DNA from: Thelephora terrestris
Taxonomy: Eukaryota > Basidiomycota > Agaricomycetes > Thelephorales > Thelephoraceae
DNA length: 64,000 nucleotides
Direction: 5' to 3'
Assembly: GCA_015956445.1 (NCBI GenBank)
Contig: WIUZ02000002.1
Location: 2,108,001 to 2,172,000, forward strand
Shown here: positions 29,755-53,083 of the stretch, piece by piece
How the letters are laid out: each line of letters starts with the position of its first letter
How positions within the stretch are numbered: position 1 is the first letter of the stretch
Program-made: the position numbers and the translations under genes
The notes under the pieces: generated by a model
The model's input: the letters and a program-made list of their open reading frames with translations, nothing else
What the model was told of the DNA's origin: nothing
Databases searched by the model: none

Positions 29755-30090
29755 TGTCAGGGCCACTCTACCCCAACAACTACCAGTGCACTGAGCCGAC
29801 TCCACAGAGTACTCACTAGTCCAACTAGCTGTGAGAGAAAGATCACTTCTCTATTCTTCTGGTAGGTTGTCCGAGGTCACTACAAGTCAGGTCGAAATCC
29901 TAAAGAGAAACCCAACCTAAACCGTACTTCGTTCGGTTTAACAAGCAAGGGTTTATCTCTACAACAGGATTGATGACTCCACCAGGTGATCGACTGGATG
30001 CTTGAGGTTTTCTATAATATGAACGCTGGGGTTCTATAGTTACAAGGTGCAGTTGACGTGCAGAGCGGGAGGGAGAGCAGATGGGGGTGT
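29755..30090 (-). mobile_element. Truncated LTR (copy a), 336 bp
   Basis: It starts TGTCAGGGCCACTCTACC and matches the first part of 52507-53058 and the complement of 37453-38009. Homology stops near 30090 after GCAGATGGGGGTGT, so the LTR 5' part is missing. Its end marks the break in the ETR1-like gene. Confidence 0.75.
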
Positions 30091-30815
30091 TAGGAACATG
30101 GTATTTTTAAACTTTTTATAACACACTCTTTCTTCGAACTCTTCTTACCATTTCTTATGTTTTGAATGCTTCACACTCTTTATCCTTCACACCCATCATT
30201 CAAAACACACAAACGCGCATACATTCACGGCAACACGGAACAACATGGCTATACTAATGCTTATACAACATCCTCAAAAGTCGACTCTATCTACGGCAGG
30301 CCTAAAGGTCATCAACTGTCCATCCTGGAGATCATAGTGCTGGCCCCTCCTCGCAAGGACCTCCCCGAACATGGCGTCACCATCTTCGGCGCTCAGCTGA
30401 ACGACTAGTTCAAGCCGATAGGAAGAGATGCCTTCGAGCAGACCGATCAGCCTCCCAGATGTGACCGAACTCTGGAACACCTGGTCCCACATCTCCATCA
30501 CCGGGTGACTGCTCGGCAGCACTATCGACGTAGTTGACGAGCGACCCTCTGTCTCCCTCGTCGGACCCCTGGGTGGGATCCTGTCTTGCGAGTTGAAGCT
30601 GGTGGCGAAGCTGGATCTCCGACTCGACCTGTTGGTAGGGACGGTTGACCCGGTAGCGGAAGGATCGTCCCTCATCTCGACCAGACTGGTCACCATCCGA
30701 CTCAACTGGTCAAGGGTACAGGTTAGCAGAAGGCGCCATGCGATGAGCAACGTGGCGTCGAGAGCATTTACAACGCTGCCCTGCTGTCACCGGACGTACC
30801 TCCATGGCCCTCGGA

Positions 30816-33800
30816 CAGTAGTCCTTATTAGATGTAGATGCACATTACCACGGTATCTCGTATTTGTGCAATCTAGCATGCGGTAGTTTGTGCAATGCTA
30901 TAGGCATTGCAATTGGGCCTGCAGGTTGTGCAATGCCGACGATATGGTACTACTGGGTGACTGGGTCAGCTTATATAAGCCAGTCATGTGATTTTCCCAA
31001 AAAGGAAATTTTTATGGCTGACATAAGCAGGTCATGTGACTGAAAAAAGTGGATGTTGCTTATATAATCAGATCATGTGACCGACCAAAAAAGGAAAGTT
31101 TTGATGGCTTACATAAGCAACTCAAAAATGATTTTGGCATCAAAATTTCCTTTTTAGGAAATTTTGATGGCTGACATAATCAGGTCATGTGACTGAAAAA
31201 AGTGGGTGTTGCTTATGTAATCAGGTCATGTGACCGACCAAAAAAGGAAAGTTTTGATGGCTTACATAAGCGTCTCAAAAATGCTTTTGGAGGGGTCTTT
31301 CCTAAAAAGGAAATTCCTTTTTAGGAAATATTTGATGGATTACCAAAAAAGGAAAATTTGATGGCTTACATAAGCAACTCAGAAATGCATTTGGCAAAAA
31401 TTACCAAAAAAAGAAAGTTCCTTTTTAGGAAATACTTTCCAAAAAAGGAAATTTTGATGGCTTACATAAGCAACTCAGAAATGCTTTTGAAAAAAATTCC
31501 AAAAAAGGAAATTTCCTAAAAAGGAAATTATATGCTAGAAAACTCGGAAAAATGCCAGAAAAATCCTAAAAAATACCGAAAAAATTCCCACGGGTCTGGA
31601 AAGTGCTCAAAATTGCAAATAAATACCAGAAATATTCAAATAAATCATTTTTCTGGCTGGATAAATCCTGGAAAAATCCGGAAAAATTACCAGAAATTCC
31701 AGAATATGTATAAATATTTTATAAAAATTATTCTGATTTTTTTTGTTCATTAAATAGCTTGTAATTTTGATATTAATGTATTTTCTGCTCCAAAAAATTA
31801 ATAAAAGTTGATAATTACAAATATATTCATAGTCTTCATTATATCATAAAATACAGACCTGTTTGTGGTCATAAACTACCCCTATAACTGGTCCTAGACC
31901 TAACCTAACCTAACCCTAACTCTAACCCTAAACCTAAACTTCAACCTGCCCTAAACCTAAACCTAAACCTAAACCTAACCTAACCTAAACCTAGCCTAAC
32001 CTAAACCTAACCTAGTACAAAACCTAAACCTAAACCTAACCTGCCCTACACCTAACCTGGCCTAGTTTGGCCTTATCTTATCTTATCTTATCTTATCTTA
32101 TCTTATCTTATCTTATCTTATCATGTCTTACCTAGCCTAAACCTAACCTAACCCAGCCTAGCCTAACCTGACATAGTCCACTTAACCTAGTCCACCACAG
32201 ATCACCCAACCTAACCTGACCTAAAGTGGTCCACCTGACCCAGCCTGATGCAACTTGACTTGATCTTATCTAATCAGCTGTCATCTTATCTGCCCCTGAT
32301 CTAAATACCTTAGCTGACCAACGTTTAACCCAACCTCACCCAGCTCACCAGCACATGACTGGGCCACAGGAACACACTATGAGCTGTACCATCCCATACC
32401 CTGTATCCAACTGTCACTCAAGCACAACAACTGTGGTGGACCTACAAGCCCACAGACCCACAACTTTAGACTGCTCACTCAGTGGAGACATCTGTTATCC
32501 AACCTCACCCATGTACTGCTCTCATCCTGTGTTCTGTGCCGGACCCCAACTTCACCACAACTCAAGATCAGCCGGGTGGCTGAACCTACAAGCCAGATTG
32601 ATATAGACCACCAGTTGTGCATCCCTGGATTGGTAGGCCTGAGAGCACATGGTCCAGCCAGGTGGCTGAACTTGAGTTGTGGTGAAGTTGGGGTCCGGCA
32701 CAGAACACAGGATGAGAGCAGTACATGGGTGAGGTTGGATAACAGATGTCTCCACTGAGTGAGCAGTCTAAAGTTGTGGGTCTGTGGGCTTGTAGGTCCA
32801 CCACAGTTGTTGTGCTTGAGTGACAGTTGGATACAGGGTATGGGATGGTACAGCTCATAGTGTGTTCCTGTGGCCCAGTCATGTGCTGGTGAGCTGGGTG
32901 AGGTTGGGTTAAACGTTGGTCAGCTAAGGTATTTAGATCAGGGGCAGATAAGATGACAGCTGATTAGATAAGATCAAGTCAAGTTGCATCAGGCTGGGTC
33001 AGGTGGACCACTTTAGGTCAGGTTAGGTTGGGTGATCTGTGGTGGACTAGGTTAAGTGGACTATGTCAGGTTAGGCTAGGCTGGGTTAGGTTAGGTTTAG
33101 GCTAGGTAAGACATGATAAGATAAGATAAGATAAGATAAGATAAGATAAGATAAGATAAGATAAGGCCAAACTAGGCCAGGTTAGGTGTAGGGCAGGTTA
33201 GGTTTAGGTTTAGGTTTTGTACTAGGTTAGGTTTAGGTTAGGCTAGGTTTAGGTTAGGTTAGGTTTAGGTTTAGGTTTAGGTTTAGGGCAGGTTGAAGTT
33301 TAGGTTTAGGGTTAGAGTTAGGGTTAGGTTAGGTTAGGTCTAGGACCAGTTATAGGGGTAGTTTATGACCACAAACAGGTCTGTATTTTATGATATAATG
33401 AAGACTATGAATATATTTGTAATTATCAACTTTTATTAATTTTTTGGAGCAGAAAATACATTAATATCAAAATTACAAGCTATTTAATGAACAAAAAAAA
33501 TCAGAATAATTTTTATAAAATATTTATACATATTCTGGAATTTCTGGTAATTTTTCCGGATTTTTCCAGGATTTATCCAGCCAGAAAAATGATTTATTTG
33601 AATATTTCTGGTATTTATTTGCAATTTTGAGCACTTTCCAGACCCGTGGGAATTTTTTCGGTATTTTTTAGGATTTTTCTGGCATTTTTCCGAGTTTTCT
33701 AGCATATAATTTCCTTTTTAGGAAATTTCCTTTTTTGGAATTTTTTTCAAAAGCATTTCTGAGTTGCTTATGTAAGCCATCAAAATTTCCTTTTTTGGAA

Positions 33801-34421
33801 AGTATTTCCTAAAAAGGAACTTTCTTTTTTTGGTAATTTTTGCCAAATGCATTTCTGAGTTGCTTATGTAAGCCATCAAATTTTCCTTTTTTGGTAATCC
33901 ATCAAATATTTCCTAAAAAGGAATTTCCTTTTTAGGAAAGACCCCTCCAAAAGCATTTTTGAGACGCTTATGTAAGCCATCAAAACTTTCCTTTTTTGGT
34001 CGGTCACATGACCTGATTACATAAGCAACACCCACTTTTTTCAGTCACATGACCTGATTATGTCAGCCATCAAAATTTCCTAAAAAGGAAATTTTGATGC
34101 CAAAATCATTTTTGAGTTGCTTATGTAAGCCATCAAAACTTTCCTTTTTTGGTCGGTCACATGATCTGATTATATAAGCAACATCCACTTTTTTCAGTCA
34201 CATGACCTGCTTATGTCAGCCATAAAAATTTCCTTTTTGGGAAAATCACATGACTGGCTTATATAAGCTGACCCAGTCACCCAGTAGTACCATATCGTCG
34301 GCATTGCACAACCTGCAGGCCCAATTGCAATGCCTATAGCATTGCACAAACTACCGCATGCTAGATTGCACAAATACGAGATACCGTGGTAATGTGCATC
34401 TACATCTAATAAGGACTACTG
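30816..34421. mobile_element. Giant foldback element E7 (3606 bp, TSD CCTCGGA)
   Basis: The two halves are near-perfect inverted copies meeting near 32619. The ends are CAGTAGTCCTTATTAGATG and its complement. The 7 bp CCTCGGA at 30809-30815 is repeated at 34422-34428. Each arm holds, from outside in, an A/T-rich zone of repeated GATGGCTTACATAAGCAACT and CCTAAAAAGGAAATTT motifs, a CCTAA/CCTAAA tract (about 31890-32060), a CTTAT microsatellite (about 32070-32120) and a GC-richer core. No transposase gene. Open frames in the arms occur twice as mirror images and are not genes. It interrupts exon 4 of gene C. Confidence 0.9.
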
Positions 34422-34767
34422 CCTCGGAGCATCTTCGGCCCGGTCGACTTCCATGACCTCATCCTCGATCTTGACCAGCTGACTGATCGGCTGCAACGGG
34501 CAGCGCCGACAGTTCTCCTTGTCGGACTCGGCCAACGTAGAAGCCGGAGCCAGAGTCGGAACGGGAACCGCGTTCTCAATCGGGGGTGTCGCATAGGACG
34601 ACGGGTTAGGCGATGGGAGTACCACCTTGTCGGCGTACTCCAGCTCGAACGGAACGTCGGCAGTCCCCTGACCAACCAACACTGGGCCCTCCTTGCAGTT
34701 GCAGGTCTTATCCTGCAAGGACACGACCTGCGCAGTCAACACGGCCACCACGTCTTCGAGCTGTTCA

Positions 34768-35268
34768 CACTGGGGGCAGGGGCACCTGGAATCAGTGATT
34801 ACATCTTGATTACATGGTGAGTTCATGTGCACTTTTCAATGATTGTAATTGCCGATTCCAGGTTGATTACATTTCAAATGTTACCTTGACATGTAATCCA
34901 GCCAACGTCCACCAATTCCATTTGAAATGTTCTCAACAAATGTTTCTGGGATGTTTTTTACCTGTTGGCAAAAATGATACTACAATGTAGTCAACATGTT
35001 CTTCAATCGTCTGGGATGTAATCTAAATGCGCTCAAAAACATGAGATGTTTTCACAATGTGCCCAGTGGGCACATTCAGGAAACATTGCTTGGAAACATT
35101 TTAAGGAAATTTCAAATGGAGTTGGTGGGCACAGTTGAATTACATGTCAAGGTAACATTTGAAATGTAATCAACCTAGAATCGGCGATTACAATTATTGA
35201 AAAGTGCACATGAACTCACTATGTAATCAAGATGTAATCACCGATTCCAGGTGCCCCTGCCCCCAGTG
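34768..35268. mobile_element. Foldback element E4 (501 bp, CACTGGGG ends, TSD TCA)
   Basis: Begins CACTGGGGGCAGGGGCACCT and ends AGGTGCCCCTGCCCCCAGTG. TCA at 34765-34767 is repeated at 35269-35271. Palindrome centred near 35018, with repeated GATTACA and ACATTTGAAATG motifs. Same length as E5 and closely similar. It lies 5 bp inside exon 4 of gene C. Gene D lacks it, which confirms the empty site. Confidence 0.92.
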
Positions 35269-36128
35269 TCAGTCTAAAGGAAGTCTCTCAGTCATTGCAT
35301 AAACCTGCAAAGGCTGAAAGCACCTTTTCATCCCTCCTGGCCAAAGCCCCCTTAATGTTGTTGTCCCGAACCTCCAGTCCGGCGATCAACTCTTGATGGT
35401 TGGCAACCATCGCCTCCAACACCTCATTCGTCCCCTGCTGAAAGGTGGCCAGAGTCTCCTTCATCAGAAGACCCTCCGCCAACAGACGAAGGACGTCTGC
35501 CTTTGCCTCCTTCACCTCGCGCTCCAAACGTTCAACCTAGGCAGTTTGATTAGTCAAGAGTCATACTCGAATATTCAAACGGAGAACCTACCCGGCTCTC
35601 CCCCTCTCGAACGAGCGACCACAACAGCGTCGTGGAAACGGTGGCATGGCGGACGGCCCGAGGAACGGTCGCCCCGTGTTCCAACAGGTCCTGATCGTAG
35701 ATCCCCCTCTGCAGGGTGTACCAGAGCTCCTTCTTGATTGGATGCTCCAACTCCCCGAACCTACCCCGCATCTGGAAGATCATCTTCTCAGCGATCATTG
35801 ACCGGACCCAGAGCTCATCGTCCCAGGTCAACCCCATCAAATGAGGGATCGTCTCCCTGAGACGTTTGGCGTCCACCTTCTGGACAACCTCCAAGATCTA
35901 GAAGCCGTTAGTTTGACATCAACGCCCTAAAGAACGGACCTCTACCTAGAGGAAGGCGTTAGTGCAAACACACAAAGCTCTAGACCTCCCCCATACCTGG
36001 TCATCCGTGGTATAGGGAGTCCCTGCCTCACTGGCGTAGGTCTTGCGGTTGGCAGCACGGCGGTCGATACGGGAGATGGTGGAGATACCGTTGGCGACTT
36101 TGTAGGTGTGGTTGTTTGGGAAAGACAT

Positions 36129-36913
36129 GTTGGTAAGATGATGGGGAAGTTGCTGGTGTTGCTGATCAAGGATGGCTCCAAGAAGACGTCCTTCTTATAG
36201 CCTAGATTGGTGATCCTTCACGTGACCTACCTCGACGAACCTCATTGGTCCGGGTCACATCAACTTCCACCCCTGTACCATCATTGTTGGCTTACTACAT
36301 CAAGCTGACACCTCGGCCCGCGGGACGGCCTTGGAAGAACTTCGTTCCGGAACGCCTAGAACGCGCGTGCACTAAAAATAGGTCTCAAGACCCTGATGAC
36401 CCCTTTATGACATCACGAACCCCTTTTACGACCCCTCATGACTTTACGATTACGATCAACCCTGGACCCTGATCACACACGTGGACAGTCACATCACAGT
36501 CTCCTAACCGGAGGAAAGAATCGCCGTTATTCGGAAGGAGTGCTTTAGACTCCTTTTGTTTAGCCCAGTGATTGTGGAGTAGCCGTTAGCGTGAAACACC
36601 GGCGAATCTGTAATCCCTCATGTCCCATGAGTCTAGGCCCGACCTCCTCATGTTTGGATGTACGTTGAGGTTGCCACTAGTCCGTGATGCTGTTACCGCC
36701 TACAGACAACAAGGGATGTTGTATGGCTCTACTCACGAATCCAGCTGGCAAAGCCAAGTAAAGGGAGATTGCCACCTAACCCTTGGGTGTGATCCCCAGG
36801 TACGAACTTTAATGACCCCATGCCCCTCTTTCTTTTAGGACTAGTGTTATCTATACCCCTATGTTTCATGCGGACATTCGTTATCTTTTATGCAATCCTT
36901 CACACGCTAGTAA
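36129..36913. other. 5' region of gene C, no separate gene
   Basis: Upstream region of gene C. It mirrors 38121-38933 in front of gene D. Short open frames here have mirrored counterparts and look non-coding. Confidence 0.55.
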
Positions 36914-37414
36914 CACTGGGGGCAGGGGCACCTGGAATCAGTGATTACATCTTGATTACATGGTGAGTTCATGTGCACTTTTCAATGATTGTAATCGCCG
37001 ATTCCAGGTTGATTACATTTCAAATGTTACCTTGACATGTAATCCAACTGTTGCCACCAACTCCATTTGAAATTTCCTCAAGATGTTCCCAAGCAATGTT
37101 TCCTGAATGTGCCCAGTGGGTACATTGTGAAAACATCTCATGTTTTTGAGCGCATTTAGATTACATCTCAGACGATTGAAGAACATGCTGATTACATTGC
37201 AGTATCATTTTTGCTGACAGGTAGAAAGCATCCCAGAAACATTTGGTGAGAACATTTTAAATGGAATTGGTGGACATTGGTTGGATTACATGTCAAGGTA
37301 ACATTTGAAATGTAATCAACCTGGAATCGGTGATTACAATCATTGAAAAGTGCACATGAACTCACCATGTAATCAAGATGTAATCACTGATTCCAGGTGC
37401 CCCTGCCCCCAGTG
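36914..37414. mobile_element. Foldback element E5 (501 bp, CACTGGGG ends, TSD TAA)
   Basis: Same ends, length and internal style as E4. TAA at 36911-36913 is repeated at 37415-37417. The mirrored D side near 38150 has the joined sequence GGGCCTTACTAGCATGTG without the element, a direct empty site. E5 therefore arrived after the inverted duplication. Confidence 0.93.
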
Positions 37415-37452
37415 TAAGGCCCTTTGTCCTTTATTCTCCCACGCATCATATT

Positions 37453-38009
37453 TGTTCGCTTCCCTTACTTAGCGTTCTCACACTCCTTATCTCCCTTTGT
37501 TCGGACTTGATAAGGGTATATTAGGGTATTGACGTCATGGCCACTCCTTTAGTATAAGTAGCAACTGTGGCTGTATTGTAGTACCTTAGTTTTGTTACCT
37601 CAGGAAATCCTCTGCCCTTCTCAGCCCAGTTGCAGTTAAGGACAAGTCAGAGTTTCTTGTTTGATCCAAGACACCCCCCCATCTGCTCTCCCTCCTGCTC
37701 TGCGCATCGGCTGCGCCTCGTAACTATAGAACCTCAGCGTTCACCTTATAGAACACCTCGAGCGTCCAGTCAATCACCTGGTGGAGTCATCAATCCTGTT
37801 GTAGAGATAAACCCTTGCGTGTTAAACCGAACAAAGTACGGTTTAGGTTGGGTTTCTCTTTAGGATTTCGACCTGACTTGTAGTGACCTCGGACAACCTA
37901 CCAGAAGAATAGAGATGTGATCGTTCTCTCACAAGCTAGTTGGACTAGTGAGTACTCTGCGGAGTCGGCTCAGTGCACTGGTAGTTGTTGGGGTAGAGTG
38001 GCCCTGACA
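37453..38009 (+). mobile_element. LTR copy c (557 bp) in the spacer between genes C and D
   Basis: Begins TGTTCGCTTCCC and ends GAGTGGCCCTGACA. Matches 53058-52507 on the other strand. Contains TATTAGGGTATTGACGTCA (CRE-like TGACGTCA) and a TATA-like AGTATAAGTAG, consistent with an LTR promoter. No target duplication is seen, because the right side runs straight into an inverted LTR piece. Confidence 0.75.
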
Positions 38010-38120
38010 GGGGGATGCCTTGTGTTCAAACAGAAAACTCTGACTTGTCCTTAACTGCAACTGGGCTGAGAAGGGCAGAGGATTTCCTGAGGTAACAAAA
38101 CTAAGGTACTACAATATGAT
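38010..38120 (-). mobile_element. Inverted LTR fragment
   Basis: Starts with a diverged GGGGGATGCCTTG and continues through CTCTGACTTGTCCTTAACTG to GGTACTACAATA, matching internal LTR sequence on the opposite strand. It forms the D-side partner of the LTR at 37453. Confidence 0.7.
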
Positions 38121-38933
38121 GTGTGGGAGAATAAAGGACAAAGGGCCTTACTAGCATGTGAAGGATTGCATAAAAGATAACGAATGTCCGCATGAAACAA
38201 AGGGGTAAAGATAACACTAGTCCAAAAAGAAATAGGGGCATGGGGTCATGAAAGTTCGTACCTGGGGATCACACCCAAGGGTCAGGTGAGAATCTTCTTG
38301 AATACTTCTTTTAGAGCGGCTAAAGATAGAAGCCATTCATCATCCCTTGTTGTCTGTAGGCGGTAACAGCATCACGGACTAGTGGCAACCTCAACATACG
38401 TCCGAACATGAGGAGGTCGGGCCTAGACTCATGGGACATGAGGGATTACATGCTTCGCTGGTGTTTCACGCTAACAGCTACTTCCACATTCACTTGGCTA
38501 ACCAAAAGGAGTCTAAGGCACTCCTTCCGAATAACGGTGATTCCTTCCTCCGGTTAGGAGACTGTGATGTGACTGTTCACATGTGTGATCAGGGTCCAGG
38601 GTTGGTCATTATCGTGATGTCATAAATGAGTCATCAGGGTCGTAAAGGGGTTCATAAAGGGGTTGTCAAGGTCATGAGACCTATTTTTAGTGCGCGCGTG
38701 TTCTAGGCGTTCCGGAACGAAGTTCTTCCAAGGCCGTCCCGCGGGCCGAGGTGTCAGCTTGATGTAGTAAGCCAACGATGATGATACAGTGGCGGAAGTT
38801 GATGTGACTCGGACCAATGAGGTGCGTCGAGGTAGGTCACGTGAAAGATCACCGATCTAGGCTATAAGAAGGATGTCTTTTTGGAGCCATCCTTGATTAG
38901 CAACACCAGCAACTTCCCCATCATCTCACCAAA
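38121..38933. other. 5' region of gene D, no separate gene
   Basis: Mirror image of the region upstream of gene C, without element E5. No independent gene is seen. Confidence 0.55.
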
Positions 38934-41175
38934 ATGTCTTTCCCCAACAACTATACCTACAAAGTCGCTCAAGGGATCTCCACCATCTCCCGCATCGACT
39001 GCCGTGCCGCCAACTGCAAGACCTACACCAATGAGGCGGGGGTTCCCTACACCACTGATGACCAGGTGGGGGGGGAGCTAGAACTTTGGTTGTATTAGTT
39101 CTAACTTCATCCTTAGATCTTGGAGATTGTCAAGCAGGTGGACGCCGAACGTCTCAGGGAGACAATCCCACACTTGATGGGGTTAACCTGGGATGACGAG
39201 CTCTGGGTCCGGTCCATGATCACCGAGAAGACAATCCATCAAATGAGGGGTAGGTTTGGGGAGTTGGAGCATCCAATCAAGAAGGAGCTCTGGTACACCC
39301 TCGTGTGAGGGATCTACGATCAGGACCTGTTGGAACACGGGGCTACTGTTCCTCGGGCCGTCCGCCACGCCACCACTTCCACCACGTTGTTGTGGTCACT
39401 CGTTCGAGAGGGGGAAAGCCGGGTAAGTTTTCTGTTTGGATATTCAAGTATGATTCTCAACTAACCAAACTGCCTAGGTTGAACATTTAGAGCGTGAGGT
39501 GAAGGAGGCGAAGGCAGACGTCCTTTGTCTGTCCGCCAAGGGTCTCTTGATGAAGGAGACCATGGCTGAGTTCCAGAAGAAGACGAACGAGGCGTTGGAG
39601 GCGATGGTGGCTAACCATCAGGAGCTAGTTGCTGGCTTGAAGGTTCGGGACAACAACATTAGAGGTGCCTTGGATACAAGGAACGATTGCCTGGATAGGC
39701 ATTCAAAGAAGATAGGGGATGAGAGCGTCAAGGTAGACACCTTTCAGCCTTTGCGATTTAGCAATGACTGAAAGATGTCTTTCTAGGTCGAGGAACTTGA
39801 GGACCTGGTGTCCATGTTGACGGCGCGGGTCAAATCCCTTCAGGATAAGACCTGCAACTGCAAGGAAGGTCTGGTCTTGGTTGGACAGGGTACAGCCAAT
39901 GTTCCCTTTGAGCTGGAGTATGCCGATGAGCGAGCCCCTTCAGCTATCTTTTCTCCATGGGTCATGGACCATACATCGTGAAAATTCTCCATGGGTCATG
40001 GGCCATGCAACGTTGTACAACGTGTTGTACAACCCATGACCCATGGAGAAAAGATACCATTATACAACCCATGACCTATGGGTAATGGAATAGTATCCGT
40101 TGCCCATGCCCCATGGGTTGTACAATGGTATCTGTTGCCCATGCCCCATGGGTTGTACAACACTATCCCTTCCCCATGCCTCATGGGTTGTACAATGCTA
40201 TCCTTTCCCCATGGGGCATGGGTTGTACAACACTATCCAATTCCCATGCCCCATGGGTTGTACAACGCTATCCTTTCTCCATGGGGCATGGCCTGTACAA
40301 CGCTATCCGTTCCCCATGGGTCATGGGTTGTACAACGCTATCCGTTGTCTATGGGGCATGGGTTGTACAACGCTATCCTTTCTCCATGGGGCATGGGTTG
40401 TACAACACTATCTATTTCCAATGCCCCATGGGTTTTACAATGCTATCCAATTCCCATGCCCCATGGGCTGTACAACAGCATCTTGTGCCCATGGGGCATC
40501 AGTTGCAGAATGGTGTCCTTTCTCCATGTCCCATGGATTATATCACTATTCCAGGAAAGGAGATCATAATATACAAATGACGGATGACTACGAATCTAAC
40601 CGATGATTGGCCCGCTTAAGTCGGTCGACCATTGGCTCGGAGCTCCGGGACAGCCGAAAACGGCAAAGCGGGTGGGGCCGACGATAGACACGCGTTGCGC
40701 GCGACTCGACGGTTGACGTCACGACTTTGACCGCCGCTCAGTCGTCGTCCACAACGTATCCCCCGCGAACCTGGGTGAGAACAGGCCTGTTTGGATGTCA
40801 CAGGCATGAGCTGGCCTGGCTCTCAAGCCTTTGGCCCAGGCTTGTGCCCAGAAGGACTCCCCTCAAACAGCGATGAAGGGGTGTCCCCCAAAACCCCTGT
40901 GCACCCAGCAGGGGTGGGATGACTCAGCGCAGTACCATCAGGCACAAGGAGACGTAGACCAGTAATACATGTAATTTACAACCTCCCTCTCATGCCTCGA
41001 GCCGAATCTCACGGCCAACGTTGACGACACTCCCGCCTCAGAGATGAGCCCGAGAGCGTCAACGTTCCTCGGTGGCGCCGAGTGGCGGTAAGTGTGGCTC
41101 TCGCCCCTGGTTAGCAGCAGGGTCAACAAAGACTGACCTCCACCCCAGCTTCATGAAGAGGATGGCCAGTCTGGA

Positions 41176-44100
41176 CAGCAGCTGCTGTCCAGTCAATATA
41201 AAAGTGGAGGTCAGATAACTGAGGAGCTATTACAATAGTGCAGGTCTGTATCTACCAATGCAAAAGTGGCTTTGCCCCCAGAACCACCCAGACGGCACCT
41301 CAGCCGAATGGAGAAATACCGAAATGTTGGGTCTGATGGCCCATCAGCAAGTATTCCCAATTAGGCAAGTACCGGAGGAGTGGATCACCCATGTGGCTGG
41401 GTATGCTTACATAATAAAAATATTTAAATGTTGAAAAATGCAAAAAAAAACAAAAAAAAACAAAAAAATTAATAGAAAATTCCCACGGGTGTCAGGGAGA
41501 GCAGAAAATGAAAAATGAACTGTGGGAATTTTGATAGCTGACATAAGCAGGTCATGTGACTGACCAAAAAAAGAAAGTTTTGATGGCCTACATAAGCAAC
41601 TCAAAAATGATTTTGACAAAAAATCCCAAAAAGGAAATTTCCCTTTTAGGAAAGACTTTCCAAAAAAAGGCAATTTGATGGCTTATGTAAGTAACTTGAA
41701 AATGCTTTTGGCAAAAATTACTAAAAAAGGAAATTTTCTAAAAAGGAAATTATATGCTAGAAAAATCGGAAAAATGCCAGAAAAATCCTAAAAAATACCA
41801 AAAAAATTCCCACGGATCTAGAAAGTACCCAAAATGGTTAATTAATTCCAAAAATATCGAAAAAATGGGTTTTCTGGTTGGATAAATCCAGAAAAATTCC
41901 GAAAAATTACCAAAAATTCCAGAATATGTATAAATATTTTATAAAAATTATCCCAATTTTTTTTGTCCATTAAATAGCCCACAATTTCGATATTAATGTA
42001 TTTTCTGCCCCTAAAAATCCAGAAAAATCTCCAAAATTTAATTAAAAATTAAAAATTACATATATATCCATAATCTTTGCTATATCATAAAATACAGACC
42101 CATTTGTGGTCATAAACTAGCCCTAGACCTAAACCTAGTCCTAGACCTGACCTAACCTAACCTGAACCTAAACCTAAACCTGAACCTAAACCTGAACCTA
42201 AACCTAAACCTGAACCTAAACCTGAACCTGCCCTAAATCTAAACATAAACCTAAACCTAAACCTAACCCTAAACCTAAGCATAACCTAACCTAACCTAAC
42301 CTAACCTAACCTAACCCTAACCCTAAACCTGAACCTAACCTCACCTAGTTTGGCCTTATCTTATCTTATCTTGAACCTGCTCTAAACCTAAACCTGAATC
42401 TAAACCTAACCTCAACCTCAACCTATCCTAACCTAACTCAACCTACCCCTAACCTAATCTGCCCTAAACCTAGCCTGCCCTAAACCTAGCCTGCCCTAAA
42501 CCTAACCTAGCACTAAACCTAACCTAGCACAGAACCTAGCCTAGGACCAAACCTAAACCTAAACCTAACCTGCCCTAAGCCTAACCCAATTCTAACCTCA
42601 CCTAGTCCTAACCCTGACCTGGCCTTGTTTGGCCTTATCTTATTTTATCTCATCTTATCTTATCTTACCTTATCTTGTCTTACCTAGCCTAAACCTAACC
42701 TAACCCAGCCTAACCTAACCTGACATAGTCCACTTAACCTAATCCACCACAAAGATCACCCAACCTAACCTAACCTAGGGTGGTCCACCTGACCTAGCCT
42801 GATGCAACTTGACTTGATCTCATCTAATCAGCTGTTATCTTATCTAACCTTAATTTAAATACCCTAGCTAACCAACATCTGACTCAACCTCACCTGGCTC
42901 ACTAGCACATAACTGGGCTATGGGAACATGCTGTGAGCTGCACCATCCCATGTCCCATATCCAACTGTCAACCAAGCACAACAACTGTGGTGGACCTACA
43001 AGTTAGTGGACCTATAAGCCCACAGACCCCCACAACTATAGACTGTTCACTCAGTTGTTCACTCAGTAGAGACATCCATTATCCGGCCTCACCATGTACC
43101 ACCCCCACCCTGTATTCTGTGCCAGACCACAACTTCACCACAACTCAAGTTTAATCACCTGGCTGAACCTGCAAGCCAGATAGATATAGACTACCACTTA
43201 CGCATCCATGGATTTGTAAGCCTGAGAGTACATGTTTCAGCCAGGTGCCTGAACTTGAGTTGTGGTGAAGTTGTGGTCTGGCACAGAACACAGGGTGAGG
43301 GTGGTATATGGGTGAGGTTGGATAACAGGTGTCTCCACTGAGTGAACAGTCTACAGTTGTGGGTCTGTGGGCTGGTAGGCCCACTAACTTGTAGGTCCAC
43401 CATGGTTGTTGCGCTTGAGTGACAGTTGGATACAGGATATGGGATGGTACAGCTGATAGTGTGTTCCTATAGCCCAGTCATGTGCTGGTGAGCTGGGTGA
43501 AGTTGGGTTAGATGTTGGTCAGCTAAGGTGTTTAGATTAAGTGCAGATAAGATGACAGCTGATTAGATAAGATCAAGTCAAGTTGCATTGGGCTGGGCAG
43601 GTGAACCACTTTGGGTTAGGTTAGGTTGGGTGATCTGTGGTGGACTAGGTTAAGTGGGCTGTGTCCAGTTAGGCTAGGGTAGGTTAGGTTAGGTTTAGGG
43701 CAGGCAAGATAGGATAAGATAAGATAAGGCCAAACTAGGTGAGGTTAGATTCAGGTTTAGGGTTAGGTTAGGTTAGGTTAGGTTAGGTTAGGTTATGCTT
43801 AGGTTTAGGGTTAGGTTTAGGATTAGGTTTATGCTTAGGTTTAGGTTTAGGTTTAGGTTCAGGTTTAGGTTTAGGTTCAGGTTTAGGTTCAGGTTTAGGT
43901 TTAGGTTCAGGTTAGGTTAGGTCAGGTCTAGGACTAGGTTTAGGTCTAGGGCTAGTTTATGACCACAAATGGGTCTGTATTTTATGATATAGCAAAGATT
44001 ATGGATATATATGTAATTTTTAATTTTTAATTAAATTTTGGAGATTTTTCTGGATTTTTAGGGGCAGAAAATACATTAATATCGAAATTGTGGGCTATTT

Positions 44101-45000
44101 AATGGACAAAAAAAATTGGGATAATTTTTATAAAATATTTATACATATTCTGGAATTTTTGGTAATTTTTCGGAATTTTTCTGGATTTATCCAACCAGAA
44201 AACCCATTTTTTCGATATTTTTGGAATTAATTAACCATTTTGGGTACTTTCTAGATCCGTGGGAATTTTTTTGGTATTTTTTAGGATTTTTCTGGCATTT
44301 TTCCGATTTTTCTAGCATATAATTTCCTTTTTAGAAAATTTCCTTTTTTAGTAATTTTTGCCAAAAGCATTTTCAAGTTACTTACATAAGCCATCAAATT
44401 GCCTTTTTTTGGAAAGTCTTTCCTAAAAAGGAAATTTCCTTTTTGGGATTTTTTGTCAAAATCATTTTTGAGTTGCTTATGTAAGCCATCAAAATTTCCT
44501 TTTTTGGCAATCCATCAAATATTTCCTAAAAAGGAATTTCCTTTTTGGGAAAGTCCCCTCCAAAAGCATTTTTGAGACACTTATGTAGGCCATCAAAACT
44601 TTCCTTTTTTGGTCAGTCACATGACCTGCTTATGTCAGCTATCAAAATTCCCACAGTTCATTTTTCATTTTCTGCTCTCCCTGACACCCGTGGGAATTTT
44701 CTATTAATTTTTTTGTTTTTTTTGTTTTTTTTTTGCATTTTTTAACATTTAAATATTTTTATTATGTAAGCATACCCAGCCACATGGGTGATCCACTCCT
44801 CCGGTACTTGCCTAATTGGGAATACTTGCTGATGGGCCATCAGACCCAACATTTCGGTATTTCTCCATTCGGCTGAGGTGCCGTCTGGGTGGTTCTGGGG
44901 GCAAAGCCACTTTTGCATTGGTAGATACGGACCTGCACTATTGTAATAGCTCTTCAGTTATCTGACCTCCACTTTTGTATTGACTGGGCAGCAGCTATTG
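41176..45000. mobile_element. Giant foldback element E8 (3825 bp, TSD GTCTGGA)
   Basis: Inverted halves meet near 43088. Ends are CAGCAGCTGCTGTCCAG on the left and the complement of CAATAGCTGCTGCCCAG on the right. GTCTGGA at 41169-41175 is repeated at 45001-45007. Arm plan as in E7: GATGGCTTACATAAGCAAC and AAAAAGGAAATTT motifs, then CCTAA/CCTAAA tracts, a short CTTAT run, and a core with ACTGGGCTATGGGAACA. The arms are more diverged from each other than in E7. No coding capacity. It lies upstream of the RepHel gene within the Helitron. Confidence 0.88.
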
Positions 45001-45060
45001 GTCTGGATCCAGGCTCAGGCCCCTGGCACCACATCACAGCGAACAAAACACACCCGGGGT

Positions 45061-48000
45061 ATGTCGTTCACTGTCTCCACCTCCCAGCCGTCGTTCACCA
45101 AGAACCAACAGGGTTCAACTCGCCAACGAGGCCAATCAGCACTAACGACCCAGCCTCGCTCGCGGCAGCCACGAGAGGAAAGCTCAGGCCGCCCTGCTCG
45201 GCGCCGAGGACAACAACAAGGCACACGTGCACACGACTCTGTAGGGAAAGGCGGCGGCGCCGGAAGTGGTGAGTCCTGTCGCTTCGAACGACACACACAC
45301 CCCGCGCTGACGTTCGTTTGCTTTCTCAGTGGTCCAACGCGTTCGTGGCAGGGTCCTGGTTGCTCGAGGGTTGTACGTTGAACCCATCGACCGACACGAC
45401 CTTGGGAGAATGGATCGGACATGCCCCAAGTGCAGAGCCTTACACTGGCTCAGTGAACGTGTCCAGAAGGCCGGGAGCACTGACCTCTACCCACTGTTTG
45501 GCATCTGCTGCAGTGATGGCAGCATCCAGTTACCCGCACCCCCTCCCCCACCCGACCTGCTTGAACGGTTATTCACGGCGTCGACGGTCGAAGCACGACA
45601 GTTTCGTGAACACATCTGCCAATATAACTCAGCCTTCGCCTTCACATCTCTCACTGGGGGCAAGGGGTCACTTACCCAGCAGATACATTGTGATTACATT
45701 GTGATTTTTTAGACAATGTGTCCAGCCTGTGGCCAGGAGGTACATGCTGAGTGCTTTTACAAAGTACCCATCAATGCAACCACAATGTGGCCAGTGGGTC
45801 CATCTTGATCACTTTTACAAAGTGCCCATCAATTCGATCACAATGTGCCCTGTGGGTCCATGCAGGATACATTGTAAAAGTATCCATCAAAGTGGCCACT
45901 GGGCACTTTGTGAAAGAAACCCCTGGGTTCTTTCACAATTTTGTTCACAATGTATCCTACTGAGTGCCTGAGCCACTCATTGAGAGTTCTTTCAAGAAGT
46001 ACCCAACAATGCAACCACAATGTCCCCAGGGGGTTCTCCCCAATGTTTTCATAATGAACTCTCAATGTGGTTGGATTTCACAACAAACTCCCAAAGAAAC
46101 CATTGAGTATCTGGTTGAATACTTTATAGACACATTGCTGGATATTTTCTGAAAGAACTCTCAATGAGTGGCTCAGGTGTATGCTGGACACTTTGTGAAA
46201 AAATTTGTGAAAGAACTCAGGGGTTTCTTTCACAAAGTGCCCAGTGGCCACTTTGATGGATACTTTTACAATGTATCCTGCATGGACCCACAGGGCACAT
46301 TGTGATCGAATTGATGGGCACTTTGTAAAAGTGATCAAGATGGACCCACTGGCCACATTGTGGTTGCATTGATGGGTACTTTGTAAAAGAACTCAGCATG
46401 TACCTCCTGGCCACAGGCTGGACACATTGTCTAAAAAATCACAATGTAATCACAATGTATCTGCTGGGTAAGTGACCCCTTGCCCCCAGTGTCTTGGAGC
46501 CCAGGTTGACAACAGCGTCAACCAAGGCAGTGGGCCCCCGGTGTTCAAAATTCACGGCGAACTCCATCACCGAATCGGTTCTCTCCTCCCTGCTGAAGGA
46601 CGATCGCCCATCTACGCTCAGCTCTACATCCTTGATCCTCACGAGGCCTCAAACCATTGCATGCAAAGAAACAGCGAGCTCGACCCCGATTTAATGTATT
46701 GCCTCGGTTGCCTCATCTCTGACAACCACCGCTGGGCCCGCATCTTCAAACAGGCGCATGAAGTCTTCCAGGCGTCGAATGCTGACCATGTCTCCCTCCG
46801 ACTCACAGTCAATTGAAACCAGGACCGTCGGCAATACAACCTCCCCACATCTGATGAAATCGCCACAATCATCCCTGGCGACGGTACTCAGACTTCCAGT
46901 ACCCGTGACATCGTCCTTCACCAACAAGAAGGATCCCTCAAACGGTTGAACGAGGGGTCTCCGACATACGAATGCTTGCAATACCCACTCTTCTTCATCT
47001 ATGGTGAAGATGGCTACCACTACGATCTCTCCATGTCCCCCACCAACCCGAGACGGCTTTCTCGAAGCGACTACACTGCATATCACGTCCAACAACGTGA
47101 AGGGGAATTCTCACTACTCCTCCGTGGCGGGCGTCCTTTCCAGCAGTATTTGGTGGATATGTGGGCAGCTGCTGACCAAAACCGCCTGAGCTTTCTTCAC
47201 TTTAATCAAGCGGAGCTTCGCTCCTCCCTCTATCAGGGCCTCAGTGACGCCATTGAACATGACGTCGACCTCCATGAGGTTGGCCAGCGAACCGTGCTTC
47301 CGTCGTCATACACCGGTGGTCCTCGGTACATGAAACAATGCCTGCAGGATGCGCTCACCTTGGCACGCTTTCACAAGAAGATCGACCTCTTCATCACCAT
47401 CACCTGCAATCCAAGTTGGCCGGAGATTACGCGAGAGCTTCTTCCTGGCCAGACTGCTGCCGACTGTCCCGATCTTTGTGCCAGGGTATTCAAGATGAAG
47501 AAGGACGCCATCATCGACAACATCTACAAACGCGGAATCTTCGGCAAAGCAGTCGCCCACATCCACACCATTGAGTTCCAGAAACAAGGCTTACCTCACA
47601 CGCACCTACTCATCTTCCTCGAGCAAGATGACAAGATTCTGACCCCTGATCAGGTTGACAGCACGGTATGGGCACGCTGGCCTGACCCACAAACCCAACC
47701 TGCTCTCTTCGAAACCGTGAAGCGATGCATGATCCACTCATGCGGTAACCGGAGCCTGGAAGATGGGAAGTGCTCCAAAAGTTATCCAAAGCCATTCCAG
47801 TCACACACCTCTGTCAACAATGAAGGCTATCCCCTGTACACTCGCCCCGACGACGGTCGGTCTTACGAGGTCCGAGGAACGATGACCAGCAACCAATGGG
47901 TTGTTCCATATAACCCCTGGCTCTCTGCAAAGTACGATTGTCACATCAACGTAGAATGCCTTGCCTCCTTTGCCACCCTCAAATATGTCAACAAATACAT

Positions 48001-50366
48001 TCACAAGGGATCTGACCGCACGACTCTTGAGGTGACTAAATTCCCAATCACATCCTGAAGTCCTTCTGTTAGCTAAACATTTGACACACCAGGTCTCGAA
48101 TGAGAACGACGAGATTCAGCGCCATCTTGACTCGAGATTTGTGGGTGCTGCCAAAAGCACCTGGCGAATTTTCCAATTTTCCATCCACGAACAAGTACCA
48201 AACGTTGTTCGCCTCCAAATCCACCTTCCCGGCCGCCACTTAGTCACGTTCAACCCCGATGAGCCTCCCGAACGCATCAACGCTCGTGCGGCCGAGGAAA
48301 AGACAACGCTTACTGCCTTCTTCCGCGCCAACGCCGATCCTGCCATGGCGCCAACCGCTCGGGAGTTAACGTACCAAGAGTTCCCCCAAAAGTTTGTCTA
48401 CGAGCCAAAACCGAGAGCCTGGCACGTTCGCAAACAAGGTTTTGCCCTCGGGAGAATGTATTTTATCCCACTGAAATCTGGCGACGAACTCTTCTACCTC
48501 CGCACTTTGCTCACTGTCGCCAAGGGTCCAACGTCGTTTGAAGACCTGCGTCGATTCAACGACACTACCTACCCCACGTTCTACGAGGCATGTCTTGCGA
48601 GAGGACTTCTTGAGGACGACGGCAAATGGAGGCAGTGTCTCCTCAAAGCGTCATACATGCAGACGGGAGAGCAGCTGAGACATCTGTTTGCCCTCCTCCT
48701 CATGTCCTGTACCCCCACTCGGCCAGAACAGCTGTGGAACGACTTCCGTCAGCACATCTGTGATGACCTACGTGCTCGGTTGCAGTCCTCTGGTTGGGAG
48801 ATCCCACAAGATGACAATGTGTACGACTACGGACTTTGGCTCCTCAACACAATCCTCCTGAGGCATGGAAAAGACCTCGCAACAACCCAGATGCCCCTCC
48901 CGAGCCGTGATTGGAGCGCCCAGGCCGGAAACATTCTCATCAGTGGACAGCTGAACTACGATCGTGACCGGGAACGCGTTGCGGCTGAAGAACATGTCCC
49001 TCGGCTCAACATCGAACAACGGCACATGCACGACAGAGTCGTTTCCTCCGTTGAGGCACATGCAGGTCAAGTCTTCTTCCTCAGTGGCCCCGGCGGTACT
49101 GGCAAGACGTTCGTCTACAACACCATTTGCAACACCGTCCGCAGCAGAGGGTCCATTGTGCTCTGTGTTGCATCCTCTGGCATAGCCTCACTGCTCCTCC
49201 ATGGTGGTCGCACCGCTCACTCCATGTTTAAAATCCCCCTAAAACCCGACAACACCAGCTACTGCTCCATCTCGAAGCAAGGGCACCTTGCAGATCTCAT
49301 CCGAGCCACCAAACTCATCATCTGGGACGAAATCACGATGCAACATCGATTTGCGGCCAAGACTGTCGATCGCACGTGTCGCGACCTTCTCAACACCCCG
49401 GACCGCCCGTTCGGTGGGACCACCATCGTCTTTGGCGGAGACTTCCAGCAAATCCTACCGGTTGTCCGTAACGGCTCTAGAGCAGACATTGTGTTTGCTT
49501 CGCTTCTACGGTCAACGCTGTGGAGCGGAATCGAGGTCTTGAAGCTCACCCGAAACATGCGCCTGCTGAATGACCTGGATGCTCAAGAGTTCGCTTCCTG
49601 GCTGCTCAATGTCGGCCATGGACGCGAATGCGGTGAAGACAGGACCATCCCCTTACCTCGACACATGGTCTCTCAAGATCTCGACACTTTTGTTACCGAG
49701 ATCTACCCCGGAATCGGGTCAAACCCTCCTCTACCTGCCGAGTACTTCCTCGATCAGATGATCCTCGCACCTCACAACAATGACGTTGATCAGATGAACG
49801 ACAAGCTTCTCAGCATGATGTCTGGTGAGGAGCAGGTCTTTCACAGTGCTGACTTGGTTGTTCGGGAGGCAGGCGCTGACAACGAAACCTCGGACGTCAA
49901 CACGTTCCCGGTTGAGTTTCTCCACTTGCTCACTGTGTCGGGACTTCCCCCGGGTGAACTGCACCTCAAGCGCAACTGCCCCCTCATCCTCCTCCGAAAC
50001 CTGTCTCCTGCACGAGGCCTTTGCAATGGCACACGCTTGATTCTAACCCGAATGTCGACCAGAGTCTTGGAGGTCAAAATCATCGGGGGTGACTACCATG
50101 GCAAAACTGAATTCATTCCGCGCATCACACTCACGCCAACCGAAGATGAGGCCAACTTTTCGTTCCAACTAAAACGACGCCAGTTCCCCGTTCGCCTCGC
50201 ATTCTCGATCACGATCAACAAGGCCCAGGGTCAATCTGTCGGATGTGTTGGCATTGACCTTCGGGTCCCGGTCTTCTCTCACGGACAGCTCTACGTTGCG
50301 CTCTCTCGAGCAACCTCCAGCCAAAACATCAAGGTTCTCCTGCCTGATGACCAAGAGGACACCTGA
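45061..50366 (+). pseudogene. Helitron RepHel: HUH/Rep nuclease fused to Pif1-like helicase, broken by E6 and a TGA
   Basis: Exons are 45061-45268, 45330-48031 (interrupted by E6 at 45652-46491) and 48093-50366, with two 61 bp GT-AG introns. The N-terminus has the Helitron zinc-finger block MDRTCPKCRALHWLSE and ICCSDGSIQLP. Removing E6 and one TCT restores AFAFTSLGAQVDNSVN. The Rep domain has the HUH motif QGLPHTHLLIF near 47588-47614 and the tyrosine region KYVNKYIHKG at 47981-48010. The Pif1 part has Walker A GPGGTGKT at 49086-49109, Walker B IIWDEI, GGDFQQILPV, and near the end ITINKAQGQS and LYVALSRATS. The protein nicks and unwinds DNA in rolling-circle transposition. A TGA at 46814-46816 stops translation before the Rep core, so this copy should be non-autonomous. 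Confidence 0.9.
45652..46491. mobile_element. Foldback element E6 (840 bp, CACTGGGG ends, TSD TCT)
   Basis: Begins CACTGGGGGCAAGGGGTCAC and ends GTGACCCCTTGCCCCCAGTG. TCT at 45649-45651 is repeated at 46492-46494. Palindrome centred near 46072, with internal CACTTTGTGAAAGAA motifs distinct from E1-E5. It splits the RepHel coding sequence in frame. Confidence 0.92.
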
Positions 50367-50623
50367 ACAACGAATATCGTGTATCCAGAAGTTTTGGCCG
50401 AGGTAAGTACAATGATTCCGGTAATCGCACAATCTCATCTTAGCTTTGTTCCTCAGGCGGCATAAGCAGGTGTAGCACATATTATATCCAGTTTCATTGT
50501 TAATAGTGAGATACAATTTGTTGTTATGCAGTATCTAGCGTTGTATCCTCCAAACCATATTTACTGATGATTTCGTGAGATTGGACATGTCGTTGCCAGG
50601 AAGTCTGTGTAACCCGCTTCACT

Positions 50624-50650
50624 GGGGCCGGGGCCGCAGGTCCCGGCCCC
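50624..50650 (+). other. Helitron 3' subterminal hairpin
   Basis: Stem GGGGCCGGGGCC (50624-50635), loop GCA, stem GGTCCCGGCCCC (50639-50650), with a single G-T pair. It lies 41 bp before the CTAG end. Helitron hairpins usually lie nearer (about 10 bp), so the spacing is long for the family. Confidence 0.65.
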
Positions 50651-52506
50651 GTTCTTCTAAAAAAGGGGGGACTGTTGCAGGCCGATACTAGTACTTTATA
50701 AATCAACCATTAGCTGTGTGAATTTGAAAAAAATAGACTCTGTTTGTATGCATGATAGACCATATATCAGTTTGTGGCTCTAACCTAATGGAAACTAAAC
50801 TTAACCTGATAATAGCCACAACCTAATCCTCAATCTGACCTGAGCCAATGTAAACTTGACCCATGAACCTAAGCCTAACCTAATCCTAAACCTGGTCTAA
50901 TCCCAAATCTAACCCTAACCTAACCTAACCTAACCTAACCTAACCTAACCTTATCTGACCTGAGCCTACACCTAACCTAACCTAACCTAACCTAACCTAA
51001 CCTAACCTATACCTAAACTAACCTATACCTATACTAACCTATACCTAACCTAACCTGGTATGGGCAAACCTAACCTACCTATCATGACCTGTTTCAGCCT
51101 AATGTCATGTATGCCAGCCAAGACTAACTTCACCCAGTTGCAAACATATGACTTGGGTCACAGGACCATAAAGCAAACTGCAGTCCCCTCACTCTGTGCC
51201 CAACCATCCCATAAGCCCACAGATGCACATATATCATCAGCAACCCAGCATCATGCTTATCACCCATGTTCAACCACAAACCACTCTCACCCTTTGTTCT
51301 GTGCTATCTCAAAGCTTAACCATAACTCTAGCTCACCCACCCATATCAATCATTGTGTGGAATATGTTATAAGTCTATAAACCATATGTTTGTAGGCCAC
51401 TTGCTTGTGGGCCCAAGGAGGTGGATGAACTTGAGTTGTGGTTTGTCTGTGAGATGGCACAGAACAAAGGGTGAGGGTGGTTTGTGGTTGAACATGGGTG
51501 ATAAGCATGATGCTGGGTTGCTGATGATATATATGTGCATCTGTGGGCTTATGGGATGGTTGGGCACAGAGTGAGGGGACTGCAGTTTGCTTTATGGTCC
51601 TGTGACCCAAGTCATATGTTTGCAACTGGGTGAAGTTAGTCTTGGCTGGCATACATGACATTAGGCTGAAACAGGTCATGATAGGTAGGTTAGGTTTGCC
51701 CATACCAGGTTAGGTTAGGTATAGGTTAGTATAGGTATAGGTTAGTTTAGGTATAGGTTAGGTTAGGTTAGGTTAGGTTAGGTTAGGTTAGGTGTAGGCT
51801 CAGGTCAGATAAGGTTAGGTTAGGTTAGGTTAGGTCAGGTCAGGTTAGGTTAGGTCAGGTCAGGTTAGGGTTAGATTTGGGATTAGACCAGGTTTAGGAT
51901 TAGGTTAGGCTTAGGTTCATGGGTCAAGTTTACATTGGCTCGGGTTTGATTGAGGATTAGGTTGTGGCTATTATCAGGTTAAGTTTAGTTTCCATTAGGT
52001 TAGAGCCACAAACTGATATATGGTCTATCATGCATACAAACAGAGTCTAATTTTTTCAAATTCACACAGCTAATGGTTGATTTATAAAGTATCTCCTTTC
52101 CTGGAATAGTGATATAATCCATGGGACATGGAGAAAGGACACCATTCTGCAACTGATGCCCCATGGGCACCAGATGCTGTTGTACAACCCATGAGGCATG
52201 GGGAAGGGATAGTGTTGTACAACCCATGGGGCATGGGCAACAGATACCATTGTACAACCCATGGGGCATGGGCAACGGATACTATTCCATTACCCATGGG
52301 TCATGGGTTGTACAATGGTATCTTTTCTCCATGGGTCATGGGTTGTACAACACGTTGTACAACATTGCATGGCCCATGACCCATGGAGAAAAGATACCTG
52401 AACCCTGTGGACGAGGTGGTACTCCCATCGCCTAACCCGTTGTCTTACGCCATGCCTCCGGTAGAGAACGAGGCTCCTATCCCAACTCCGGCTCCGGCTT
52501 CCACTC

Positions 52507-53058
52507 TGTCAGGGCCACTCTACCCCAACAACTACCAGTGCACTGAGCCGACTCCGCAGAGTACTCACTAGTCCAACTAGCTTGTGAGAGAACGATCACA
52601 TCTCTATTCTTCTGGTAGGTTGTCCGAGGTCACTACAAGTCAGGTTGAAATCCTAAAGAGAAACCCAACCTAAACCGTACTTCGTTCGGTTTAACAGACA
52701 AGGGTTTATCCCTACAGCAGGATTGATGACTCCACCAGGTGATCGACCGGACGCTCGAGGTGTTCTAATGTGAACGCTGGGGTTCTATAGTTACAAGGCG
52801 CAGGCAACGCGCAGAGCGGGGGGGAGAGCAGATGGGGTGTCTTGGATCAAACAAGAAACTCTGACTTGTCCTTAACTGCAACTGGGCTGAGAAGGGCAGA
52901 GGATTTCCTGAGGTAACAAAACTAAGGTACTACGATACAGCCACAGTTGCTACTTATACTAAAGGAGTGGCCATGACGTCAATACCCTAATATACCCTTA
53001 TCAAGTCCAAACAAAGGGAGATAAGGAGTGTGTGAACACTAAGTAAGGGAAGCGAACA
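52507..53058 (-). mobile_element. LTR copy b (552 bp)
   Basis: Starts TGTCAGGGCCACTC and ends GGGAAGCGAACA, the inverted full-length counterpart of the LTR at 37453-38009. No matching target duplication at its ends, so the flank has been rearranged. It cuts gene D. Confidence 0.75.
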
Positions 53059-53083
53059 AAGATGACGCGTGCAGCTGTGGAGA

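Follow-up and report, generated by a model that had tools for sequence, protein, structure and literature searches.

Galileo, a foldback-like element of the P superfamily in Drosophila, is described in the accessible text of PMC3573991 as having long, repetitive inverted arms that are 98–100% identical within a copy and whose length changes by tandem repeats. Its target duplications are 7 bp long, chimeric copies carry non-matching 7-bp flanks, and the authors propose that the length of the arms invites recombination and conversion. That system thus already unites extended repetitive arms with 7-bp duplications and with the idea that arms exchange sequence. For fungi, 7-bp hAT and 3-bp EnSpm elements (PMC12730594) and basidiomycete Helitrons (PMC4289320) are also in print, as far as the accessible parts of these sources go.

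A literature survey covering titles and the openings of abstracts, with subscription papers mostly outside it, yielded no description of a fungal foldback transposon, nor of a foldback family whose two tips differ and whose centre inverts, which is weak evidence of absence in both cases. Nested transposons have long been known. The nest described here is ordinary in this respect, and the flipping palindrome F within it is the interesting part.

Layers of the nest and their boundaries

The window, i.e., the whole stretch of 64,000 nucleotides that was analyzed, lies on contig C12 of a genome of 40.6 Mb that is assembled into 60 contigs. The presence of introns and a Helitron, together with the size of the genome, is consistent with a fungus. 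An earlier note had read from it a four-level nest, in which a gene, D, is interrupted by a foldback, F, the latter by a Helitron, and the Helitron by two further foldbacks (ins1 and ins2). This nest is real: its boundaries were set (Table 1), and empty sites were found elsewhere in the same genome, namely at 27 of the 29 D loci examined, in all 39 F arms of the 20 fetched loci and in the Helitron copy L064. As the note had stated, taking out each insert restores the sequence beneath it, which was seen from uninterrupted copies elsewhere in the genome. The further statement that each is removed with one target duplication is correct for F (7 bp), ins1 (7 bp) and ins2 (3 bp) and wrong for the Helitron, which has no target duplication. 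The nest was judged from exact ends and empty sites; since exact canonical ends flank every insert on both sides, a chance origin is implausible.

Table 1. Coordinates of the nested features in the window
Feature	Position	Strand	Basis
5′ fragment of element D (TGTCAGGGCCACTCTACCCC end), cut by C	29755..30087	+	92–96% match to 5′ part of D copies
Element C, second D-family copy, in D	30088..38009	-	5-bp duplication GGGGG (30083-30087, 38010-38014)
Element D resumed: leader and gene D up to F	38010..39931	+	27/29 other D loci uninterrupted at F site
Left target duplication of F, GATGAGC	39925..39931	+	Comparison with other D loci
F left arm, outer part: GAGCCCC tip, 35-bp repeat array	39932..40563	+	Same tips in other copies
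Helitron in left arm of F, between A and T	40564..50691	+	5′ TC, hairpin 50624-50650, 3′ CTAG
ins1	41176..45000		7-bp duplication GTCTGGA at 41169-41175 and 45001-45007, 7/7; L064 has GTCTGGA once
ins2, 840 bp, CACTG...CAGTG ends	45652..46491		3-bp duplication TCT, 3/3; L064 has TCT once
Rep and helicase open frames	46817-48058, 48036-50366	+	Pfam
F remainder: rest of left arm, spacer 51335-51425, right arm, CCCTGTG tip	50692..52409	+	Continuous with outer arm in 39/39 F arms
Element D after F	52410..52506	+	First 7 bases are the right target duplication GACGAGG
5′ part of third D-family copy X	52507..53071	+	Truncates gene D

The base layer is not the ordinary gene for which it had been taken, as gene D lies within a mobile repeat of 3.3 kb that starts with TGTCAGGGCCACTCTACCCC and finishes with ...CCTGACA. 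The exact 5′ end occurs 376 times in the genome, while the reversed control gave 0. For comparison we employed 29 other loci (L015–L043), obtained from 40 scored among 474 candidates, of which 30 were cut out, including the window’s own. Both ends were present in 12 of the 29 loci, with a length of 3.22–3.35 kb except for L033 and L041 (3.84 kb), and exact 5-bp duplications were observed at 10 of these 12, L030 and L041 being the exceptions. D therefore shows the TG...CA ends (TGTCAGG...CCTGACA) and 5-bp duplication of LTR retrotransposons. That D is flanked by long terminal repeats was nevertheless rejected, as gene-bearing units of 3.2–3.85 kb directly abut the 5-bp duplications at those 10 of 12 loci; the whole D unit may itself be a solo LTR.

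The four exons of gene D gave dN/dS values of 0.14, 0.12, 0.18 and 0.15, calculated from gap-free alignments only (29, 28, 26 and 23 of the 29 loci, respectively, the others being dropped), and 0, 1, 2 and 2 copies among the same loci contained stops. These values may favour intact copies, because the loci used are the best-matching ones. The spliced product had no Pfam match above the cut-off and no PDB relative in a sequence search, and an AlphaFold model of exon 2 (mean pLDDT 53) was too low in confidence for use. This base layer is worth study in itself: the repeat is mobile, abundant and intron-bearing, and its protein, although it matches no Pfam family, shows purifying selection.

Within the window, gene D starts at the ATG at 38934 (read by eye), contains a stop codon in frame within exon 2 and ends prematurely at 52506, where X truncates it. 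Ends of D and X were not found within the window, and a further insert begins at about 53076. Element C was inserted backwards in D and carries a palindrome (30816-34421) of 3.6 kb, whose arms are 99.7% identical over 1771 bp and which has CAGTAGTCC ends and a 7-bp duplication, CCTCGGA. It also carries two foldbacks (34767-35269 and 36913-37415) with CACTGGGGGC ends, of the same type as those of ins2, and 3-bp duplications (TCA and TAA). Two more foldbacks are present in the window at 7625-8579 and 24213-25166.

F as a whole extends over 39932-52409, i.e., 39932-40563 plus 50692-52409 around the Helitron. Its site in D (...GCCGACGAGGTGG...) is uninterrupted in 27 of the 29 comparison loci; the other two, L016 and L017, diverge at or before the site, where they are broken by other sequence. 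The F duplication (GATGAGC/GACGAGG) is mismatched at two of seven positions, one of the changes being C to T at a CpG. The claim that F splits gene D in frame was borne out insofar as both halves share a frame if a single 7-bp duplication is kept, in a gene that also carries the exon 2 stop and the truncation mentioned above.

The position of the Helitron in the left arm of F was likewise confirmed, since F sequence runs through that point in all 39 arms from the 20 loci. We had also considered the Helitron to lie at the dyad centre of F, with 50692-52091 as a separate foldback; this was rejected because other F copies read through the site. As the 39 arms are continuous across the Helitron site, this CCTAA-rich foldback is the inner part of F itself. 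TA target duplications for F and for the 50692-52091 foldback were also discarded, comparison with other copies giving 7 bp. The inner arms of F hold CCTAA/TTAGG arrays (50851-51057 and 51707-51932) that resemble telomere-type repeats, and other foldbacks of the window, at 42113-42650 and 54195-54600, match these arrays. The 35-bp array (40075-40606) is stop-free in the three forward frames, which gives three overlapping, probably spurious ORFs of 164–170 codons.

The termini of the Helitron (TCATAATATAC at 40564 and GATACTAG at 50691) provide the 5′ TC and 3′ CTRR ends, A|T site and lack of target duplication that are expected of such elements. The 5′ end recurs after A in two other copies (L064 and L066) and the 3′ end before T in three (L010, which is the same copy as L064, L012 and L013), whereas L011 is without the end. 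Pfam matches to Helitron_like_N (PF14214; E 5.1e-56), PIF1 (PF05970; E 1.9e-76) and Pif1_2B were detected, i.e., a Rep domain together with a PIF1-type helicase. Copy L064 (C12:2830900-2836800) matches the window Helitron at 97.5–97.9% in three blocks and is without both foldbacks. The 127 differences in 5452 positions include 118 transitions, and 101 of the 127 involve a CpG, which resembles the signature of methylation or RIP.

The two foldbacks that the earlier note had placed in the Helitron do lie there: both ins1 (presumably its E8) and ins2 (presumably its E6) are absent from L064. They belong to different families, which corrects that note. Among 40 relatives of ins1 scored of 138 candidates, matches of at least 95% were found only on contigs C7, C20, C23 and C56; one relative, L065, has the same ends and a 7-bp duplication, GGTGAGT. 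The ins2 family consists of uniform 840-bp elements, with 40 full-length copies at 94–100% (window included) scored of 423 candidates, and 3-bp duplications were observed in all six copies read (window, L067–L069, L027 and L034).

ins2 breaks an open frame (...NSAFAFTSL/GAQVDNSV...) that runs on, in phase, into the Rep domain, with a single TGA between the two in both the window and L064. This frame, which had no Pfam match, we take to be the N-terminal region of the Helitron protein. The earlier note had placed E6 inside the RepHel gene; ins2 does lie in a frame leading into Rep, and it is probable that this frame is part of that gene. Together with its duplication, ins2 comprises 843 bases (3 × 281), with in-frame stops inside.

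Nesting does not provide the complete order of arrival that had been read from it, given that it orders neither ins1 relative to ins2 nor F relative to C. Strictly, nesting orders insertions into one another rather than arrivals at the window site, and an outer element could have brought its passenger along. In such a case, for example, F and the Helitron jumped into D as a unit, and the nesting records the order of building rather than that of arrival. Cut-and-paste elements leave no donor copy, so that such a jump is compatible with the lack of another F with a Helitron, and the distance between exact F tips reaches 10.6 kb, which suggests that F may be mobile even at such lengths. We nevertheless regard such a joint jump as quite unlikely, as the Helitron is in none of the 39 other F arms examined and the duplication of F has decayed at two of seven positions while those of ins1 and ins2 are perfect, which hints that the insertion of F is the older event.

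Tips, centre and arms of the F family

As expected of a foldback, F has a short centre between long inverted arms that contain tandem repeats. Eleven of the 20 fetched F loci were complete, and their 7-bp duplication was exact in nine, had one mismatch in L049 and did not match in L051; the other nine were incomplete within the fetched stretch and hence outside this count. A pattern covering both F tips retrieved 109 exact ends in the genome (53 on the plus and 56 on the minus strand), against 0 for the control. Among 100 F ends listed, 84 formed 42 facing pairs within 12 kb, and the other 16 were single or repeated tips. All 42 exact pairs were dimorphic, with one GAGCCCC and one CACAGGG tip, 24 in one direction and 18 in the other, and they spanned 459 to 10,582 bp. 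L051 (319-5020) is an F copy with two CAC-type tips, one of them decayed, and no matching target duplication; it is possibly the product of an exchange between F copies.

The orientation of the centre was determined with the 91-bp spacer of F, for which 40 of 52 candidates were scored. In the 29 of 42 pairs with exactly one spacer match, the centre was oriented as in the window in 18 and reversed in 11. The remaining 13 pairs were without a scored match, although two of them (L053 and L060) hold a weaker spacer, one in each orientation. In L047 and L050, two common one-arm variants keep their tip side and swap their spacer side, while one variant near the spacer keeps its spacer side; therefore, the exchange was placed between about 50766 and 51325 (window coordinates). 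Derived variants common to each pair were also found in L045/L048 and in L053/L060, again with opposite centres. That sister copies differ by an inversion of the centre suggests recombination between the arms.

The two orientations might also represent two old subfamilies that were amplified separately, with no continuing recombination. The 18:11 split needs a single ancient flip if both forms bred true, whereas the three pairs with common derived variants hold opposite orientations, so that the orientation must have changed three times or more if these pairs are true sisters (their kinship being derived from common variants, not from a tree). We therefore consider two separate subfamilies unlikely. 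Even less probable, and in our view very unlikely, is that faulty assembly of long inverted repeats produced the layers of the nest or the seeming flips of the F centre. Assembling palindromes is difficult, and the nest is read from the assembly; however, canonical tips bound each insert, together with a duplication of its own or, in the case of the Helitron, an A|T site, which a misjoin would not give. Moreover, 36 of the 42 exact F tip pairs are shorter than 7 kb, and L047 and L050, which occupy separate sites and have unlike duplications, are only one clean exchange apart.

Besides differing in the orientation of their centre, F copies have arms that seem to have been partly evened out. In a 172-column segment adjoining the Helitron site, arms differed on average by 0.47 within copies (17 copies) versus 2.54 between copies, and 18 variants were present in both arms of a copy versus 12 in one arm only. 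The window copy had four one-arm changes and no both-arm change in this segment, where the other 17 copies showed 0–2 one-arm changes. This excess gave a one-sided Fisher p of 0.018, or 0.010 with the inner segment added, and concerns a single copy; these tests on F arms are indicative only, because a variant that several related copies inherited enters the count repeatedly. The inner segment had 16 both-arm and 20 one-arm variants. In the outer segment (nine copies), 4 both-arm variants contrasted with 53 one-arm variants, 46 of which were in L049, L051 and the window, where most one-arm changes come with a gap or a changed end in one arm. Evening-out is thus clear only in the mid segment.

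Inversion and partial evening-out are best explained by recombination between the arms of F; a switch of template at a hairpin in the course of transposition would have the same effect. Taking these observations together, we tentatively propose that F may be a self-isomerising foldback, in which recombination between the arms flips the centre again and again and makes the arms more alike, in which only copies with two different tips stay mobile, and in which the Helitron stopped the evening-out in the window copy. If this is true, the 10-kb Helitron in one arm of the window F is a natural experiment, and the split copy suggests a test of whether arm recombination needs uninterrupted arms. With at least 42 dispersed palindromes, marked tips and a mostly marked centre, the F family is a ready system for measuring inverted-repeat recombination.

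Arm divergence and the age of the layers

Foldback arms are tempting as clocks, and the earlier note had called for dating the layers by the divergence between them. This approach failed, as divergence here, judged against other copies of the elements in the genome, can oppose a physically certain nesting order. Naive values were 4.7% for ins2 (17/360 mismatches), 3.1% for ins1 (11/359) and 2.2–3.5% for F (7/322 in the mid plus outer stretches, 17/603 with the inner stretch and 29/844 by blastn); hence, ins2 exceeded F, against the nesting order, and ins1 was not below F. Arm divergences that contradict the nesting had been named as grounds for abandoning the nest. Such a contradiction is indeed present in ins2, and it does not refute the nest, because many of the arm differences are inherited.

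Regarding ins2, 20 columns differed between the window arms; 18 of them also differed in one or more of the five other copies, and 13 differed throughout the six. Similarly, the two arms of F are told apart by eight columns near the centre; five of these hold in every one of the 16 copies compared, the other three in at least 14. These shared columns indicate that the arms start out different. In ins1, the inherited share of the arm differences is small: the outer 359 columns contained 11 differences, compared to 2 of 359 in its relative L065, although ins1 lies in the youngest layer, and this excess speaks against ins1 being young. The F arms are not usable for dating either, because the centre of the family faces either way in different copies. 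Divergence can thus oppose nesting because arm differences are inherited and because arms seem to exchange sequence.

Changes private to the window are a better guide than the arms. They amounted to 54/997 (5.4%) in gene D, 10/1205 (0.8%, summed over six segments) in F and 4/840 (0.5%) in ins2, while the Helitron provided a pairwise value only (the 127/5452 differences from L064), from which an upper bound of about 1.2% per copy was derived. These values put D as oldest and ins2 as youngest and do not separate F from the Helitron; F (0.8%) and the Helitron (up to 1.2%, as an upper bound) do not resolve into the order expected.

Proposed history and comparison with known systems

We hold with high confidence that the locus is a stack of ordinary transposon insertions, in which the arms of F probably recombine, so that the divergence of foldback arms is no insertion clock here. 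The 3.3-kb mobile repeat D, which bears introns, was entered by F, with a target duplication of 7 bp; the Helitron went into the left arm of F between A and T, with no duplication; and the Helitron in turn received two unrelated foldbacks, ins1 with a 7-bp and ins2 with a 3-bp duplication, ins2 in the frame that continues into Rep. These steps are documented by ends, duplications and empty sites, whereas the enzymes are those we infer. F and ins1 may have been moved in trans by a transposase cutting with a 7-bp stagger (hAT7- or P/Galileo-like), ins2 by a transposase of the CACTA/EnSpm type, and the Helitron by its own Rep-helicase. The near-identical arms of F would recombine, so that the centre inverts and the arms are partly evened out, while the two different tips stay.

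No transposase for F, ins1 or ins2 was found, a search of the genome giving only three matches to the hAT dimerisation domain. A partner transposase would be marked by 7-bp duplications with CACAGGG or CAGCAGCTGCTG ends.

Among described elements, the hAT7 families of rust fungi share 7-bp target duplications with F, ins1 (GTCTGGA in the window, GGTGAGT in L065) and the palindrome at 30816-34421 (CCTCGGA); in the accessible text of PMC12730594, these families are defined by a hAT transposase, and our elements are likened to them by duplication length. The CAC...GTG ends and 3-bp duplications of ins2 (six of six copies read) and of the foldbacks at 34767 and 36913 are like those of fungal EnSpm/CACTA elements as given in the same source, from which ins2 differs in being an 840-bp foldback, too short for a transposase gene. 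The window Helitron agrees with those of Pleurotus ostreatus in its A|T site, 5′ TC, subterminal hairpin, 3′ CT[A/T]G and Rep and helicase domains; its hairpin ends 41 bases from the 3′ end, in contrast with about 12 given for P. ostreatus in the accessible part of PMC4289320.

With respect to the accessible description of Galileo (PMC3573991), F is alike in its long, internally repetitive and near-identical arms, in the change of their length by tandem repeats and in its 7-bp duplications, which are those of Galileo and the P superfamily, and the F copy L051 resembles the chimeric Galileo copies with non-matching flanks. F is likened to Galileo on arms and duplications, and it differs in that its own two tips are unlike each other in their outermost 7 bp. 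Inversion of the centre is a feature of F that the accessible text of PMC3573991 does not describe for Galileo, and F is an unusual foldback family.
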